From the NCBI GenBank assembly GCA_030041985.1, contig JASIAM010000312.1, forward strand, positions 1-64,000: a stretch of DNA of 64,000 bases, read 5' to 3'. Made by a program: the position numbers and the translations under genes. Below the pieces are notes generated by a model that was given only the letters and a program-made list of their open reading frames with translations, was not told the DNA's origin and ran no database searches. Shown here one piece after another: positions 1,934 through 9,483 of this stretch. Source of the DNA: Bryobacteraceae bacterium (GTDB taxonomy: Bacteria; Acidobacteriota; Terriglobia; Bryobacterales; Bryobacteraceae). How positions within the stretch are numbered: the first letter of the stretch is position 1; the number at the start of each line of letters is the position of its first letter.

Positions 1934-3028
1934 ATGGTTCGCGATTCCCCGCCCCGCAAAACACCCGAACAGCTCCTGCGCGAGTGCCAGGCCGAGGAGG
2001 CGGCGGCAATCAAAGGACACCTGAAGATTTTTCTGGGCTATGCTTCCGGCGTGGGCAAAACGTTTCGGATGCTGGACGAAGCCCGGCGGCGGCGCGAGCG
2101 CGGCCAGGATATCGTAGTGGGCGCTGTACAGCCGCGCGTGCGGCCTGAAGAGCAAGCACTCCTGGCCAAGTTGGAGGTAATGCCTCTCAAAACTCTGAAT
2201 GGTGGCCATACGATGGATGTGGAGGCCCTCCTGCGCCGCCATCCCACCGTGTGCTTTATTGACGGACTGGCTTACAATAATCCGCCCGGCGCCCGCAACC
2301 CCACGCGCTGGCAGGATGCCGAAGAGCTTCTGTGCGCCGGCATCAAAGTGATCGCCTCGATCAATATCCAATATGTCGCTGAGCTTGGCGAAGCTGTGGA
2401 GGCCATTACCGGAAAGCACGTCCAGGACACCGTCCCGGTGTCTTTTATTCAGAGCGCCGATGAAATTGAAATTGTGGACGCCGCGCCGGAGGAACCGATC
2501 GAACGGCCGCCGGAAGAAGCGGCCAGCGCCGCCGAACGCGCGGGGCGCCTTTCGCGGCTGCGCGAACTGGCGCTGCTGCTCACCGCCGATGTGGTGGATG
2601 AGCAGCTCAATCATTACCTCGAATCGCACGGTATCCGGCAAAACTTCGGGGCGCATGAGCGCATTCTGGTGTGTGTTACTCCCCGCGCCAATGCTCGTGA
2701 GATGATTGAGACTGCCCGGGTGATGTCGGACCGGTTTCATGGCGAGCTGCTGGTGGCCTACGTCCGCCAGCCGGAGATTTCCCCCGCCGATAAAGCTGCG
2801 CTGGAGGAGAAGCTCGAAATGGCCCGCGCCGTTTCCGCCCGGATCGTAATTCTGGAAGGCGACAACCCCGTCCAGGCCATTCTGGATTTCGCCTCCAAAG
2901 GCGGTGTTACGCAAATCTTTATCGGACATAGCCAGCGTAACGGAATCTGGTCGAATGTCTGGGGCAACCCCGTGGACAAACTGCTGCGCGGCGCGCACGG
3001 CATGGATGTCCGCGTGTTTCCCCAATAG
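1934..3028 (+). CDS. KdpD N-terminal sensor/Usp-like protein without kinase, copy 1 (degenerate)
   Basis: A 364-residue protein matching only the cytoplasmic N-terminal half of the potassium sensor kinase KdpD. A KdpD-type P-loop (GYASGVGKT, residues 35-43) opens the first domain and a universal-stress-like domain fills the C-terminal third. No membrane helices, HisKA or ATPase module follow. The family motif after the Walker B aspartate (usually like DELAHTN) reads IDGLAYNN at about residues 108-115: the acidic residue after the Asp is Gly and the His is Tyr, so nucleotide hydrolysis is doubtful. It lies in a probable operon with the HAD gene and KdpD-like copy 2. A potassium or cyclic-di-AMP sensing role is known for KdpD relatives but is inference here. 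No kdpFABC genes are in the window. Confidence 0.8.
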   Translation: MVRDSPPRKTPEQLLRECQAEEAAAIKGHLKIFLGYASGVGKTFRMLDEARRRRERGQDIVVGAVQPRVRPEEQALLAKLEVMPLKTLNGGHTMDVEALLRRHPTVCFIDGLAYNNPPGARNPTRWQDAEELLCAGIKVIASINIQYVAELGEAVEAITGKHVQDTVPVSFIQSADEIEIVDAAPEEPIERPPEEAASAAERAGRLSRLRELALLLTADVVDEQLNHYLESHGIRQNFGAHERILVCVTPRANAREMIETARVMSDRFHGELLVAYVRQPEISPADKAALEEKLEMARAVSARIVILEGDNPVQAILDFASKGGVTQIFIGHSQRNGIWSNVWGNPVDKLLRGAHGMDVRVFPQ

Positions 3029-3045
3029 GACCGTGCGAACGCACA

Positions 3046-4170
3046 ATGGCGGATGCGCGGCGGGGCAGATTGAAAATCTATATGGGCTATGCCGCGGGCG
3101 TCGGCAAAACCTATCAGATGCTGGTGGATGCCCAGGATTTGAAGGCCCGGGGCGTGGATGTCGTAGTCGGCTACTTCGAACCGCATTCGCGCCAGGACAC
3201 GATCGCGAAGCTCGACGGGCTGGAGGTTGTGCCGCGCAAAAAAATCGAGTACCGCGGCTCGGTCTTCGAAGAGATGGACACCGATGCCATCCTGGCGAGA
3301 CAGCCGGAGTGCTGTGCGGTGGATGAGTTTCCGCACACCAACGTGCCCGGCTCGCCGCACGCCAAACGGTGGGAAGATGTGCAGGTCCTGCTCGATGCCG
3401 GAATCGATGTCCTCACCACCATGAACATCCAGCACCTGGAGAGCTTGAACGACCAGGTATGGCACATCACCGGGATTCGCGTCCGCGAGACCATCCCGGA
3501 CCCGGTAGTGCAACAGGCCGATGAAGTCGTGATGATCGATTTGACCCCCCGGGCCCTGTTGCACCGCCTCGCACGCGGGGTCATCTATAGCCGCGAAAAG
3601 GCGGAGCAGGCCAGGAACAATTTCTTTCGGGAATCGACCCTGGTGGCGCTGCGCGAACTGGCGCTGCGGGAAACCGCCCATGAAGTCGTGCATCGCGGCG
3701 CTGCCGACGGTATCGCGCAGCCGGTCGAGGCCACGGGATCGATACCCGGTGCCTTGGTCCATCACAAATTGTTGGTGCTGGTAACTCCGGACCCTACCAG
3801 CGCCATGGTCATTCGCCGCGCCAAGCGCATCGGCGATTTCCTGGACGCCGAATGTTTCGCCGTTGCCGTGCAGCCTTCCGGCGACCTGGCGGGCCTGCCG
3901 CAGCCCGAGCGCGAGGCCGTCGCGCAGCACCTCAATTTCGCCCGTAATCTGCACATTGAAACGCGCATCCTGGAGGGCAGCGATGTCGCAGCCGCGCTAG
4001 TGGATTTTGCCCGCCGCAATCAGATTACCCAGATCTTCCTAGCCAGGCCCAAAGAACATCACTGGTCGCTGCCGTTGTTTTCCCGCGATCTGGTGCAAAG
4101 AATTGTGAATATCGCGAGAGACATGCAGATCGTGGTGGTGGCGGAGCGCGAGCCTTTTCAATCCCAGTGA
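3046..4170 (+). CDS. KdpD N-terminal sensor/Usp-like protein without kinase, copy 2
   Basis: A 374-residue paralogue of the preceding gene, 17 bp downstream. The P-loop GYAAGVGKT is at residues 14-22 and the conserved VDEFPHTNVPGS motif is intact, unlike copy 1. The universal-stress-like domain covers roughly residues 240-370. As in copy 1 there are no transmembrane helices and no histidine kinase module, so it cannot phosphorylate KdpE by itself. One intact and one degenerate copy in tandem suggest a hetero-oligomer or division of labour, which is inference. It ends 12 bp from the convergent TIR gene. Confidence 0.85.
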   Translation: MADARRGRLKIYMGYAAGVGKTYQMLVDAQDLKARGVDVVVGYFEPHSRQDTIAKLDGLEVVPRKKIEYRGSVFEEMDTDAILARQPECCAVDEFPHTNVPGSPHAKRWEDVQVLLDAGIDVLTTMNIQHLESLNDQVWHITGIRVRETIPDPVVQQADEVVMIDLTPRALLHRLARGVIYSREKAEQARNNFFRESTLVALRELALRETAHEVVHRGAADGIAQPVEATGSIPGALVHHKLLVLVTPDPTSAMVIRRAKRIGDFLDAECFAVAVQPSGDLAGLPQPEREAVAQHLNFARNLHIETRILEGSDVAAALVDFARRNQITQIFLARPKEHHWSLPLFSRDLVQRIVNIARDMQIVVVAEREPFQSQ

Positions 4171-4182
4171 TGTTCGTACGGC

Positions 4183-4737
4183 TCAATCGCTATGACGGCT
4201 TCGCCGGCGAAGAGCCGCCGCCAATCGGCGCACACCGCGCTCCCGGTCGGGGAACAGATCGATATATTGCAACTCGCGCTCGACCGCGCGCGGCACACGG
4301 CAGCCGTCGAGGCGCAGGGGCACTATAAAGATGTCATCCAATGGCACGCGGCGCGCGCAATCCAAAGCGTAGCGGATTTCGGCTTGAAAACCTCCTCGCT
4401 TGGTTACCGAATGAGTGGAAAAACAGGCCAGGAAAAAATCGGAATTTTCGATTGCGGCTTCAATTGCCCGCGGCCAATTTTGCCCCGGCAGCAATTTGCG
4501 AACGTCCATCCACGGACTGAACCCTTCCGCCTCGAGCGCGTTGTAAAGCCATTCCGCCATTGACCGGTCCTCCTCCACATAGGCCAGGAAGACCTGCGGC
4601 AGCCTCGGTTCGAAGCGGCAACCAAGGGCGGCATCCGGATAAAACACTCCCAATCCGTCGATTTCCACCGCGGCGCCGCGGGTCAATGCACGAATCACAA
4701 TCCCGGCCAGTTCGTGTGCCGTGGAGCAATCACTCAT
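4183..4737 (-). CDS. TIR-domain protein with an HU-like N-terminal segment
   Basis: A 184-residue protein. Residues 1-48 resemble the middle of HU/IHF proteins: a helix, then a segment with VEIDGLGVFYPD that parallels the HU 'valine-x-leucine-x-glycine-phenylalanine-glycine' turn. Residues about 49-150 form a TIR domain: VFLAYVEEDR (first strand), the WMDVRKLLPGQNW loop, and FSTHSVTKRGGFQAEI carrying a glutamate where NAD-cleaving TIR domains have their catalytic Glu. Bacterial TIR domains commonly act as NADases or signal-nucleotide synthases in antiphage defence. The ATG at 4737 overlaps the stop of the upstream HU-like gene by 8 bp (ATGAGTGA), implying translational coupling. The HU resemblance is by eye and less certain than the TIR call. 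Confidence 0.75.
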   Translation of the reverse strand: MSDCSTAHELAGIVIRALTRGAAVEIDGLGVFYPDAALGCRFEPRLPQVFLAYVEEDRSMAEWLYNALEAEGFSPWMDVRKLLPGQNWPRAIEAAIENSDFFLACFSTHSVTKRGGFQAEIRYALDCARRVPLDDIFIVPLRLDGCRVPRAVERELQYIDLFPDRERGVRRLAAALRRRSRHSD

Positions 4738-4939
4738 CGGCTTGGCGAGCCTCCTGCTCGAAGCTGATTTTGCCATCGCGCCCCACGCGAAATTTGCCGA
4801 GGCCCGGCAAGGGAGCCTCCTGGCCGTGACGCAATTTTTTCAGGATCTGGTTCACCATGCGGTCCAGCCGGTCCGCCGCCTCCGCTTCACTGACACCGGC
4901 GCGCCGAGCCATTCGTTTCGCCAGTTCCGGCTTCTTCAT
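4730..4939 (-). CDS. Truncated HU-like protein, coupled to the TIR gene
   Basis: A 69-residue protein starting MKKPELAKRMARRAGVSE, which parallels the helix-turn-helix start of HU (K-x-E-L-x-x-x-x-A-x-x-x-G-x-S). It continues through PLPGLGKFRV, the counterpart of the HU turn before the DNA-binding beta arms, and ends soon after, so the long minor-groove-inserting arms are missing. It could still dimerise through the helical part. It overlaps the downstream HU/TIR gene, whose own N-terminus also looks HU-derived, so the two could form a mixed dimer. Function is inference. Confidence 0.7.
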   Translation of the reverse strand: MKKPELAKRMARRAGVSEAEAADRLDRMVNQILKKLRHGQEAPLPGLGKFRVGRDGKISFEQEARQADE

Positions 4940-5154
4940 CCGGCCATCACTCTAGCAGCCTGGCACGCCGAAGTACTCCCCCCAAACTGACTAAGCTCAT
5001 GGAAATACAGACAATTCCGCATCGTATCAAATCGGAAATTGCTGTGACTCGCACGAAATGAATTGATTTTAATTGGCGTTTAAGACAGAGTTCATCTGTA
5101 GCTCGTTACTATAGCGAAAGACGGCGTAAACGTCGCAAATCAAAGGAGAGAAGC

Positions 5155-5310
5155 ATGAAGAAACTGTTGACGCTAATGTTGGGTGCGGGACTGGCCTTAG
5201 GCACCGTCAGTATGACATTTGGCCAGGATCAGCCCAAAGATGGCACCACCACCAAGAAAAAAGGGAAGAAAAAGAAGAGCACCGACGAGCCCAAGAAAGA
5301 CCTCCGCTAG
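5155..5310 (+). CDS. Small exported lysine-rich protein
   Basis: A 51-residue protein. The N-terminus MKKLLTLMLGAGLALG continues to ...TFGQ and is a typical signal peptide. The mature part of about 27 residues is very basic and hydrophilic, with the run KKKGKKKK. A strong ribosome binding site (AAAGGAGAG, 5142-5150) lies just before the ATG at 5155. No family is recognised. A periplasmic or surface polycation role is only a guess. Confidence 0.6.
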   Translation: MKKLLTLMLGAGLALGTVSMTFGQDQPKDGTTTKKKGKKKKSTDEPKKDLR

Positions 5311-6692: not shown

Positions 6693-7694
6693 TCAAAACA
6701 ACATTAATTGTGTTGCGGGCTCCGGCCCGTAATAGAACCGCAGTGCGTTGGCCTCTTCGATGCGCCCCCAATGCTCGCAGATCCAGGTCAACTCGCGGGC
6801 ACAAGCTTCCGGCGCAGTCTCTGCGTCCAGCAGCCGATGCAGCAGTTCGTAAGCTTCTGCATAACGCCGCATCGCGGCTAGCTCCCGCGCATATTTGAAT
6901 GATTCCGGCGTTTGTGCAATCTGAACCGGGTCCTCGGTGATGAGTGTCGAGGTCCTGCCGCTGGGGGTCAGCGCATCCGCAAATTCCGGGTGCGGTGCAT
7001 CCAACACCAGCAGGCAGCGGCGCTCGGCCAACAGATTGCGGATTCGCATGCAGTTCTCTTCGGCGACACCGTCCAGCGCCACTCCGGCTTGCGCGCCCAG
7101 TTCACCGGAAAGCTGTGCCAGGCTGCGCCTATGCCCAGGGACCCAGAAAACGGTTTCAAACTCTTCGGCAGCTTCGCGAGCGAACCGCGCTGCCCTTTCG
7201 CCGGCAATCCGCTCTACGCCCGCACGGTCGGCGATTTCCCGGTAGAGCGGCTCCAAATCGCGCGAAAATGCGGTACTGGGCGGGAGGCCAGGCTCGCGGC
7301 GTCTCTGCCAAAACCAACGCTTCACCAAGCGCATCGCCAACCGGCGATTCTGCGACGCGTCAAAGAAATTGCGGCGCCGCCACACCTCGGGAAACGGGCA
7401 CTCCTCTAACAAAATCGCGGCAATCTCGGCATTTGCATCGCGCGCCTGGTCCACCAGCACAGGCTCCCAGTCCTGCCGCGGCCGGCGCATCGGCCAGGAA
7501 GCACTGGAAAGCAATAGAATTAGGATATCGGCGGCCAGCCCTTCTTGGGCTTTGTTGAGCAAATCGCCGCCGGCCGCCATCAGCCCATCCCCGCTGTAGC
7601 ACGTCACATCACAACCGAACTCCAAAAAATCGGCCAGCTCACAGGCAAACTCATGGTCCGGGGCCGCGTGGGCGAGAAAGAGTGTGGTCTTCAA
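6693..7694 (-). CDS. TIR-domain protein fused to a degenerate NB-ARC/STAND-like module
   Basis: A 333-residue protein. Residues 1-130 are a TIR-type domain (TLFLAHAAPDHEFACELADFL..., then LILLLSSASW). Residues about 165-265 follow the pattern of STAND NTPases: ETVFWVPGHRRSLAQLSGEL, then CLLVLDAP (Walker B-like) and STLITED (sensor-like). The expected Walker A GGVGKTTLA is replaced by AGVERIAGE just before, so the lysine is lost and NTP binding is doubtful. The C-terminal 70 residues look helical and TPR-like. The start appears to be TTG at 7694, with no clear ribosome binding site. An immune or cell-death role is inferred from the TIR plus NB architecture. Confidence 0.7.
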   Translation of the reverse strand: MKTTLFLAHAAPDHEFACELADFLEFGCDVTCYSGDGLMAAGGDLLNKAQEGLAADILILLLSSASWPMRRPRQDWEPVLVDQARDANAEIAAILLEECPFPEVWRRRNFFDASQNRRLAMRLVKRWFWQRRREPGLPPSTAFSRDLEPLYREIADRAGVERIAGERAARFAREAAEEFETVFWVPGHRRSLAQLSGELGAQAGVALDGVAEENCMRIRNLLAERRCLLVLDAPHPEFADALTPSGRTSTLITEDPVQIAQTPESFKYARELAAMRRYAEAYELLHRLLDAETAPEACARELTWICEHWGRIEEANALRFYYGPEPATQLMLF

Positions 7695-9054: not shown

Positions 9055-9483
9055 TTAGCTGCTCTTTTGCACTGTCTTGTGCTTCGGTTTCTTCGCGGTC
9101 CAATTCTCCGGCGCGCGCATTTCCTCCGGCAGTCTGGTTACGGCGTCGCCGTGAGTTTGGCGAAGCTGCTCTTCGGTAAGATCCTCCGCAGTCGAAAGGT
9201 CAGCGCCGCAAATATTGGCGTGTGCCAGATCGACTCCCATCAGCCGCGCGCCTACCAGATTGGCGCCGCTCAGATCCGCATGCCTGAGATCAGCGCCACG
9301 CAAATTGGCCAATACCAAATCGGCCTCGGTCAATTGCGCCGAAGAAAGGTTGGCCAGCAGCAAATTGGCGCCGCGCATTACGGCATAGGCCAAGTCCGGC
9401 TTCACTTTGGGATTGTCCTCGCGCCACTTATTCCAGGCATCCACGTCACGCATCAGCAGTTCAAAATGTTCCTTGTCCGCCAT
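9055..9483 (-). CDS. Pentapeptide-repeat protein
   Basis: A 142-residue protein. Residues about 40-100 contain at least nine pentapeptides of the form A(D/N)Lxx: ANLLL, ANLSS, ADLVL, ANLRG, ADLRH, ADLSG, ANLVG and so on. They predict a right-handed quadrilateral beta-helix. The N-terminal 35 and C-terminal 40 residues are non-repetitive and charged, with no signal peptide. Functions in this family vary and none can be assigned. It is convergent with ispG (24 bp gap). Confidence 0.85.
   Translation of the reverse strand: MADKEHFELLMRDVDAWNKWREDNPKVKPDLAYAVMRGANLLLANLSSAQLTEADLVLANLRGADLRHADLSGANLVGARLMGVDLAHANICGADLSTAEDLTEEQLRQTHGDAVTRLPEEMRAPENWTAKKPKHKTVQKSS

Follow-up and report, generated by a model that had tools for sequence, protein, structure and literature searches.

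Work on bacterial TIR proteins has dealt almost exclusively with phage-defence effectors of patchy distribution. SPARTA, which combines a TIR-APAZ protein with a short Argonaute, resembles the gene pair reported here in having the nearest solved TIR domain and in placing a TIR effector with a partner protein; however, our pair has neither APAZ nor Argonaute, its partner is an HU remnant, and its distribution is not patchy. With Thoeris and other immune systems built on a TIR NADase, the pair shares the NADase-type TIR and the two-gene layout, but no SIR2, macro-domain, ThsA-type or other effector gene is conserved beside the pair, of which the HU-like gene is the only constant same-strand partner of the TIR gene. 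The ThsB models yielded only weak matches, all to the TIR part. Type II toxin-antitoxin modules are likewise headed by a small partner gene that overlaps a second, potentially toxic one, whereas the present pair is family-wide, single copy and mostly vertically inherited.

HU and IHF (PF00216) share helix 1, helix 2, the first strands and the GxGxF motif with the HU-like protein of the pair, but the latter has no arms or C-terminal helix and is always paired with a TIR gene. The CCDC81-like bacterial HU model (PF18175) is the top Pfam model for both HU-like parts of the pair; the CCDC81-like domains occur in tandem in one chain, whereas here they are distributed over two proteins, one of which is TIR-fused. 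Burroughs and colleagues reportedly proposed in 2017 that these domains serve protein-protein contacts. A literature search found no paper that combines HU and TIR in one system, in line with the first-pass annotation, which knew of no described defence system with this layout; a prior mention is possible.

The window, meaning the whole stretch of DNA analysed, comprises 64,000 nt from a Bryobacteraceae bacterium (GCA_030041985.1, contig JASIAM010000312.1, positions 1-64,000 of the forward strand). The pair and its promoter element comprise the following features.

4730..4939, minus strand: arm-less HU-like protein, 69 aa (PF18175 and PF00216; HU chains in the PDB; 78/78 relatives)
4183..4737, minus strand: HU-TIR fusion protein, 184 aa (PF13676; family genomes; AlphaFold)
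4594..4737, minus strand: HU-like N-terminus of the TIR protein, residues 1-48 (hhalign, Pfam HU models, predicted structure)
4222..4593, minus strand: TIR domain, residues 49-172 (PF13676; SPARTA TIR domains are the nearest solved structures)
4378..4380, minus strand: codon of E120, the NADase-type Glu (orthologue alignment; SPARTA TIR alignment)
4730..4737, minus strand: 8-bp gene overlap, ATGAGTGA (coordinates of both reading frames)
4949..4954, minus strand: extended -10 element TGCTAGAGT, hexamer TAGAGT (TANNNT kept across relatives)

The first-pass annotation had reported a 69-residue match to HU without the DNA-binding arms, and the coordinates and length proved exact, with the HU profile match ending at residue 53. 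The protein scored 40 bits against PF18175 (cut-off 35) and 34.7 bits against PF00216 (cut-off 22.4; positions 1-53 of 90). Its layout consists of helix 1, helix 2, short strands and a tail, and the PF00216 core of helix 1, helix 2 and strand was present in 25/25 relatives; the HU-like proteins mostly measure 60-77 aa. A PDB search placed HU chains closest, aligned over residues 1-57 only. The beta arms and C-terminal helix with which HU binds and bends DNA are absent: the match stops at 53-58, and the relatives end before the arms or continue without them. The tail is basic in 59/78 relatives, and that of the window's own protein is acidic. Judged from its sequence, with the arms missing, the HU-like protein is probably not a DNA binder, and a role as a DNA sensor is not supported. 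Because its own genome also encodes four ordinary full-length HUs elsewhere, the arm-less protein is best regarded as a specialised fifth copy.

The TIR domain of the second gene matched PF13676 over residues 49-172 (E-value 2.5e-29; 102.7 bits, cut-off 28). The nearest solved TIR domains were those of SPARTA, both by sequence and by fold (Foldseek), and E120 aligns with the catalytic Glu of the SPARTA TIRs. E120 is kept in 78/79 TIR orthologues, the remaining one (L135) carrying Asp, and W76, D78 and GQNWP are nearly invariant. These results bear out the earlier assignment of a TIR domain with an NADase-type Glu, and we infer that the protein cleaves NAD+ as TIR enzymes of the SPARTA/SARM1 type do.

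The first 48 residues of the TIR protein had also been described as HU-derived. A Pfam scan of the single window sequence returned no match for these residues. When 24 TIR-protein N-termini were examined as a family, HU models were matched in 21/24 (PF18175, best E-value 1.1e-6) and 18/24 of them; hhalign joined the N-termini to the partner profile at an E-value of 9e-12, and a search of the window's own genome with that profile recovered the TIR protein N-terminus (E-value 0.0185). The HU origin of this part is therefore confirmed. AlphaFold modelled the window's TIR protein with a pLDDT of 87.6 and a pTM of 0.79, and its N-terminus was predicted to form a helix (residues 3-19) and short strands (24-26, 30-35 and 39-44), an HU pattern preceding the TIR domain, with the strand motif VEIDGLGxF. 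In the model, this N-terminus corresponds to HU helix 2 followed by a short sheet that has no arms, helix 1 being absent.

To follow the pair across named public genomes, we assembled 80 loci, mostly of Bryobacterales, Bryobacteraceae, Candidatus Solibacter and Paludibaculum. In each of the 78 loci with upstream DNA, the HU-like gene lay directly upstream of the TIR gene and on its strand, and the two genes are thus conserved together in every testable locus. The 8-bp overlap noted in the first-pass annotation is exact, and most relatives overlap by 1 to about 40 bp, which suggests translational coupling. Among the 78 loci, no natural single-chain fusion of the two proteins was found, only in-frame neighbours with a stop between them. 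A search with the HU-like profile matched 126 family genomes, each with exactly one copy; among the best 40 of these matches, 39 adjoined a TIR match when compared by eye, and the remaining one lay at a contig end. Three other readings of the two frames were considered. Chance reading frames were ruled out by the conservation of the two frames, and of their order, in 78/78 loci, and so was a broken HU gene, since the same conservation holds and the HU-like stop is followed by the TIR gene. A longer TIR start (ATG at 4776, 197 aa) is less likely, because the relatives align from MSDC and start near the stop of the partner.

The extended -10 element lies 9 bases before the ATG of the window's HU-like gene and, in most relatives, about 15 bases ahead of the start codon; TANNNT was found at this position in 62/78 relatives vs 6.6 expected from shuffles. 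One conserved promoter serves the pair, and its position implies a nearly leaderless transcript. Gene order and overlap together point to a partner that is synthesised first and in a proportionate amount. In most of loci L061-L140 the element likewise implies that Bryobacteraceae mRNAs carry little or no leader.

We infer that the two proteins form a physical complex, which is supported by modelling and co-divergence. A mixed alignment of the single chains of both genes for AlphaFold was abandoned, MAFFT having misplaced the HU rows. In one locus, L114, the HU-like and TIR genes share a frame with a single TAG between them, and this codon was read as Gln for AlphaFold. The resulting chain, in which the linker forces proximity, was modelled as one confident fold that took in both HU parts, with a pLDDT of 89.9, a pTM of 0.84 and a value of about 92 for the HU part, which lends the complex support short of proof. 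The matches listed in a fold search of this model were TIR chains only, and its comparison with the SPARTA TIR gave a Z of 17.4 over 129 residues at 2.0 A. The distances of the TIR protein and its partner remained correlated with each other once RpoB was controlled for (partial rho 0.60, p 0.0005). Inter-chain covariation placed the TIR N-terminus in 26/50 top pairs vs 14.8 expected, a weak signal in a count left uncorrected for the greater variability of the N-terminus. With the HU homology, the 78/78 pairing, the L114 model and the co-divergence, the heterodimer first proposed, with one subunit free and the other fused to the TIR domain, is still the most natural reading.

Genus g48 provides a natural truncation of this arrangement. 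The HU-like profile search returned no match in this genus; in 5/5 inspected genomes (L251-L255), an upstream partner of similar length comprises helices 1-2 only and a proline- and lysine-rich tail, its beta-sheet being gone, and the TIR protein N-terminus retains the EIDGxGxF strand motif. We read this truncation as complementation between the two HU parts, the free subunit supplying the helix pair and the TIR protein the sheet. The persistence of the pair without the partner's sheet further suggests that DNA binding is dispensable. The first-pass annotation had linked the TIR domain to DNA or nucleoid state, and that proposal was not sustained: the arms are absent from both parts, and the g48 partner has lost its whole beta-sheet.

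The TIR protein was found in 190/237 family genomes and 64/76 genera at an E-value of 1e-20, and in 187 family genomes at 1e-30 or below, a few of these matches being low-scoring and possibly TIR-only. Among good-quality Bryobacteraceae genomes, 122/148 carried it (E-value 1e-30 or below), usually in one copy; as about 18% lack the pair at this threshold, the pair is not essential. In the other genomes of the order (20 of the 257 in the order search), no TIR protein match was found at 1e-30. A phylum search over an even draw of 347 genomes gave full-length matches confined to Bryobacteraceae, with only the TIR domain matched elsewhere, and the partner profile recovered only longer, ordinary HUs outside the family in the same phylum, as judged by open-frame length and match range. 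No relative was found in the viral contigs searched, and the plasmids searched held partial TIR matches only and no homologue of the pair.

The conserved neighbours of the pair are cysK, Rrf2, a TPR gene and uvrC, and the ancestral neighbourhood seems to have been cysK, Rrf2, the pair, the TPR gene and uvrC. RpoB was used as the species marker, RecA having been discarded owing to duplicate recA genes; many Bryobacteraceae genomes (L162-L191) carry two full recA genes. Pair distances tracked those of RpoB (rho 0.52, p 0.0005). Over the same loci, identity was 55% for TIR vs 71% for UvrC, the pair changing faster than its neighbours. The pair looks like a broadly vertically inherited core unit of Bryobacteraceae rather than a mobile defence gene. 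A second, unrelated TIR protein of 333 aa is encoded at 6693-7694 (minus strand), 2 kb from the pair, with TIR_2 at residues 6-116 and a weak C-terminal match to a TPR-system model; its gene is patchy, occurring in 10/61 relatives and 2/5 of its own genus.

We propose that the pair is an HU-derived, translationally coupled split docking module that clamps a TIR NADase off until a cue arrives, an explanation that we consider to have an even chance of being correct as a whole. The 69-aa HU subunit, its arms lost, would dock on the TIR protein at the HU-like N-terminus, where helix 1 is missing; jointly, the two parts would rebuild an arm-less HU-type heterodimer acting as a protein-protein clamp and not as a DNA binder. 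Through translational coupling and its own conserved promoter, the partner would be made first and in step, and would hold the TIR protein off as a monomer. If the partner were altered, through loss, proteolysis or a ligand, the TIR domains would be freed and might then assemble and cleave NAD+ in the manner of SPARTA or SARM1, leading to growth arrest or death, or to the production of a nucleotide signal. In this scheme, NAD+ cleavage, the off-state and the trigger are presumed, and that the partner is an inhibitor rather than an activator is a guess from the gene order.

An antiphage or abortive-infection role, with the TIR domain switched on by an HU-type dimer that acts as the sensor of DNA, of nucleoid damage or of a phage DNA-binding protein, would accord with the closeness of the TIR domain to those of SPARTA and other immune systems, the HU fold, the basic tails of most HU-like relatives, and uvrC downstream of the pair in many genomes. 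Nevertheless, neither HU part has DNA arms, the window's own tail is acidic, and the g48 partner lacks even its sheet. Defence genes are usually patchy in distribution: cas1, our yardstick, was present in 78/148 good-quality family genomes, and the second TIR gene of the window in 10/61 relatives, whereas the pair has a family-core spread, without relatives in viral contigs and with only partial TIR matches on plasmids. We regard this role as unlikely. The suggestion that the locus is a typical antiphage system was not borne out either, the pair being near-universal, single copy, set among housekeeping neighbours, in step with RpoB, and off the viral contigs and plasmids searched. The same spread, with the conserved promoter, the ancestral cysK-Rrf2 and uvrC neighbours and the RpoB correlation, would suit a housekeeping or stress-signalling unit, in which the TIR domain produces a nucleotide signal or adjusts NAD+ during normal physiology and the HU-like protein is a permanent subunit; yet the pair changes faster than neighbouring genes and is missing from about a fifth of genomes, and we consider this reading rather doubtful.

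Toxicity is a known property of TIR NADases, and the pairing is fixed in an overlapping, antidote-first order, as expected if the HU-like protein were an unstable antidote and the TIR protein a toxin maintained by addiction. Signs of mobility, multiple copies and a plasmid homologue of the pair are all absent, however, making such a toxin-antitoxin module quite improbable. Many TIRs are scaffolds, and the Asp at position 120 of one orthologue would be compatible with a non-enzymatic TIR domain in which E120 is kept for structure; the retention of E120 in all other orthologues at a mean identity near 50%, with W76 and D78 nearly invariant, argues against this, and we give it very little credence.

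Returning to the clamp, the findings suggest that the HU fold has been reused for control of a potential cell-killing enzyme and not for DNA binding. More specifically, we hold tentatively, at somewhat less than even confidence, that an HU protein lost its arms and was split over two genes to become a core-genome TIR clamp, which would be vertical and cell-intrinsic, and neither a mobile defence nor a DNA sensor. A core TIR pair kept throughout a soil-dwelling bacterial family would offer a place to ask what TIR enzymes do beyond mobile immunity, much as animal SARM1 does. The HU fold would here have turned from DNA architecture to a protein clamp, and the natural stepwise truncations simplify the design of binding tests.

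Several other genes of the window deserve mention. Two adjacent plus-strand genes (1934-3028 and 3046-4170), reading towards the 3' end of the pair, encode KdpD-like sensor-domain proteins without the kinase part, for both of which the best NCBIfam model was KdpD_non_kinase, below its cut-off. A pentapeptide-repeat protein is encoded at 9055-9483 (minus strand), under the NCBIfam cut-offs for HetL and Alr5209. Divergent from the pair, at 5155-5310 (plus strand), lies a gene for a 51-aa lysine-rich, exported-looking protein with a signal-like start and a KKKGKKKKS tail.
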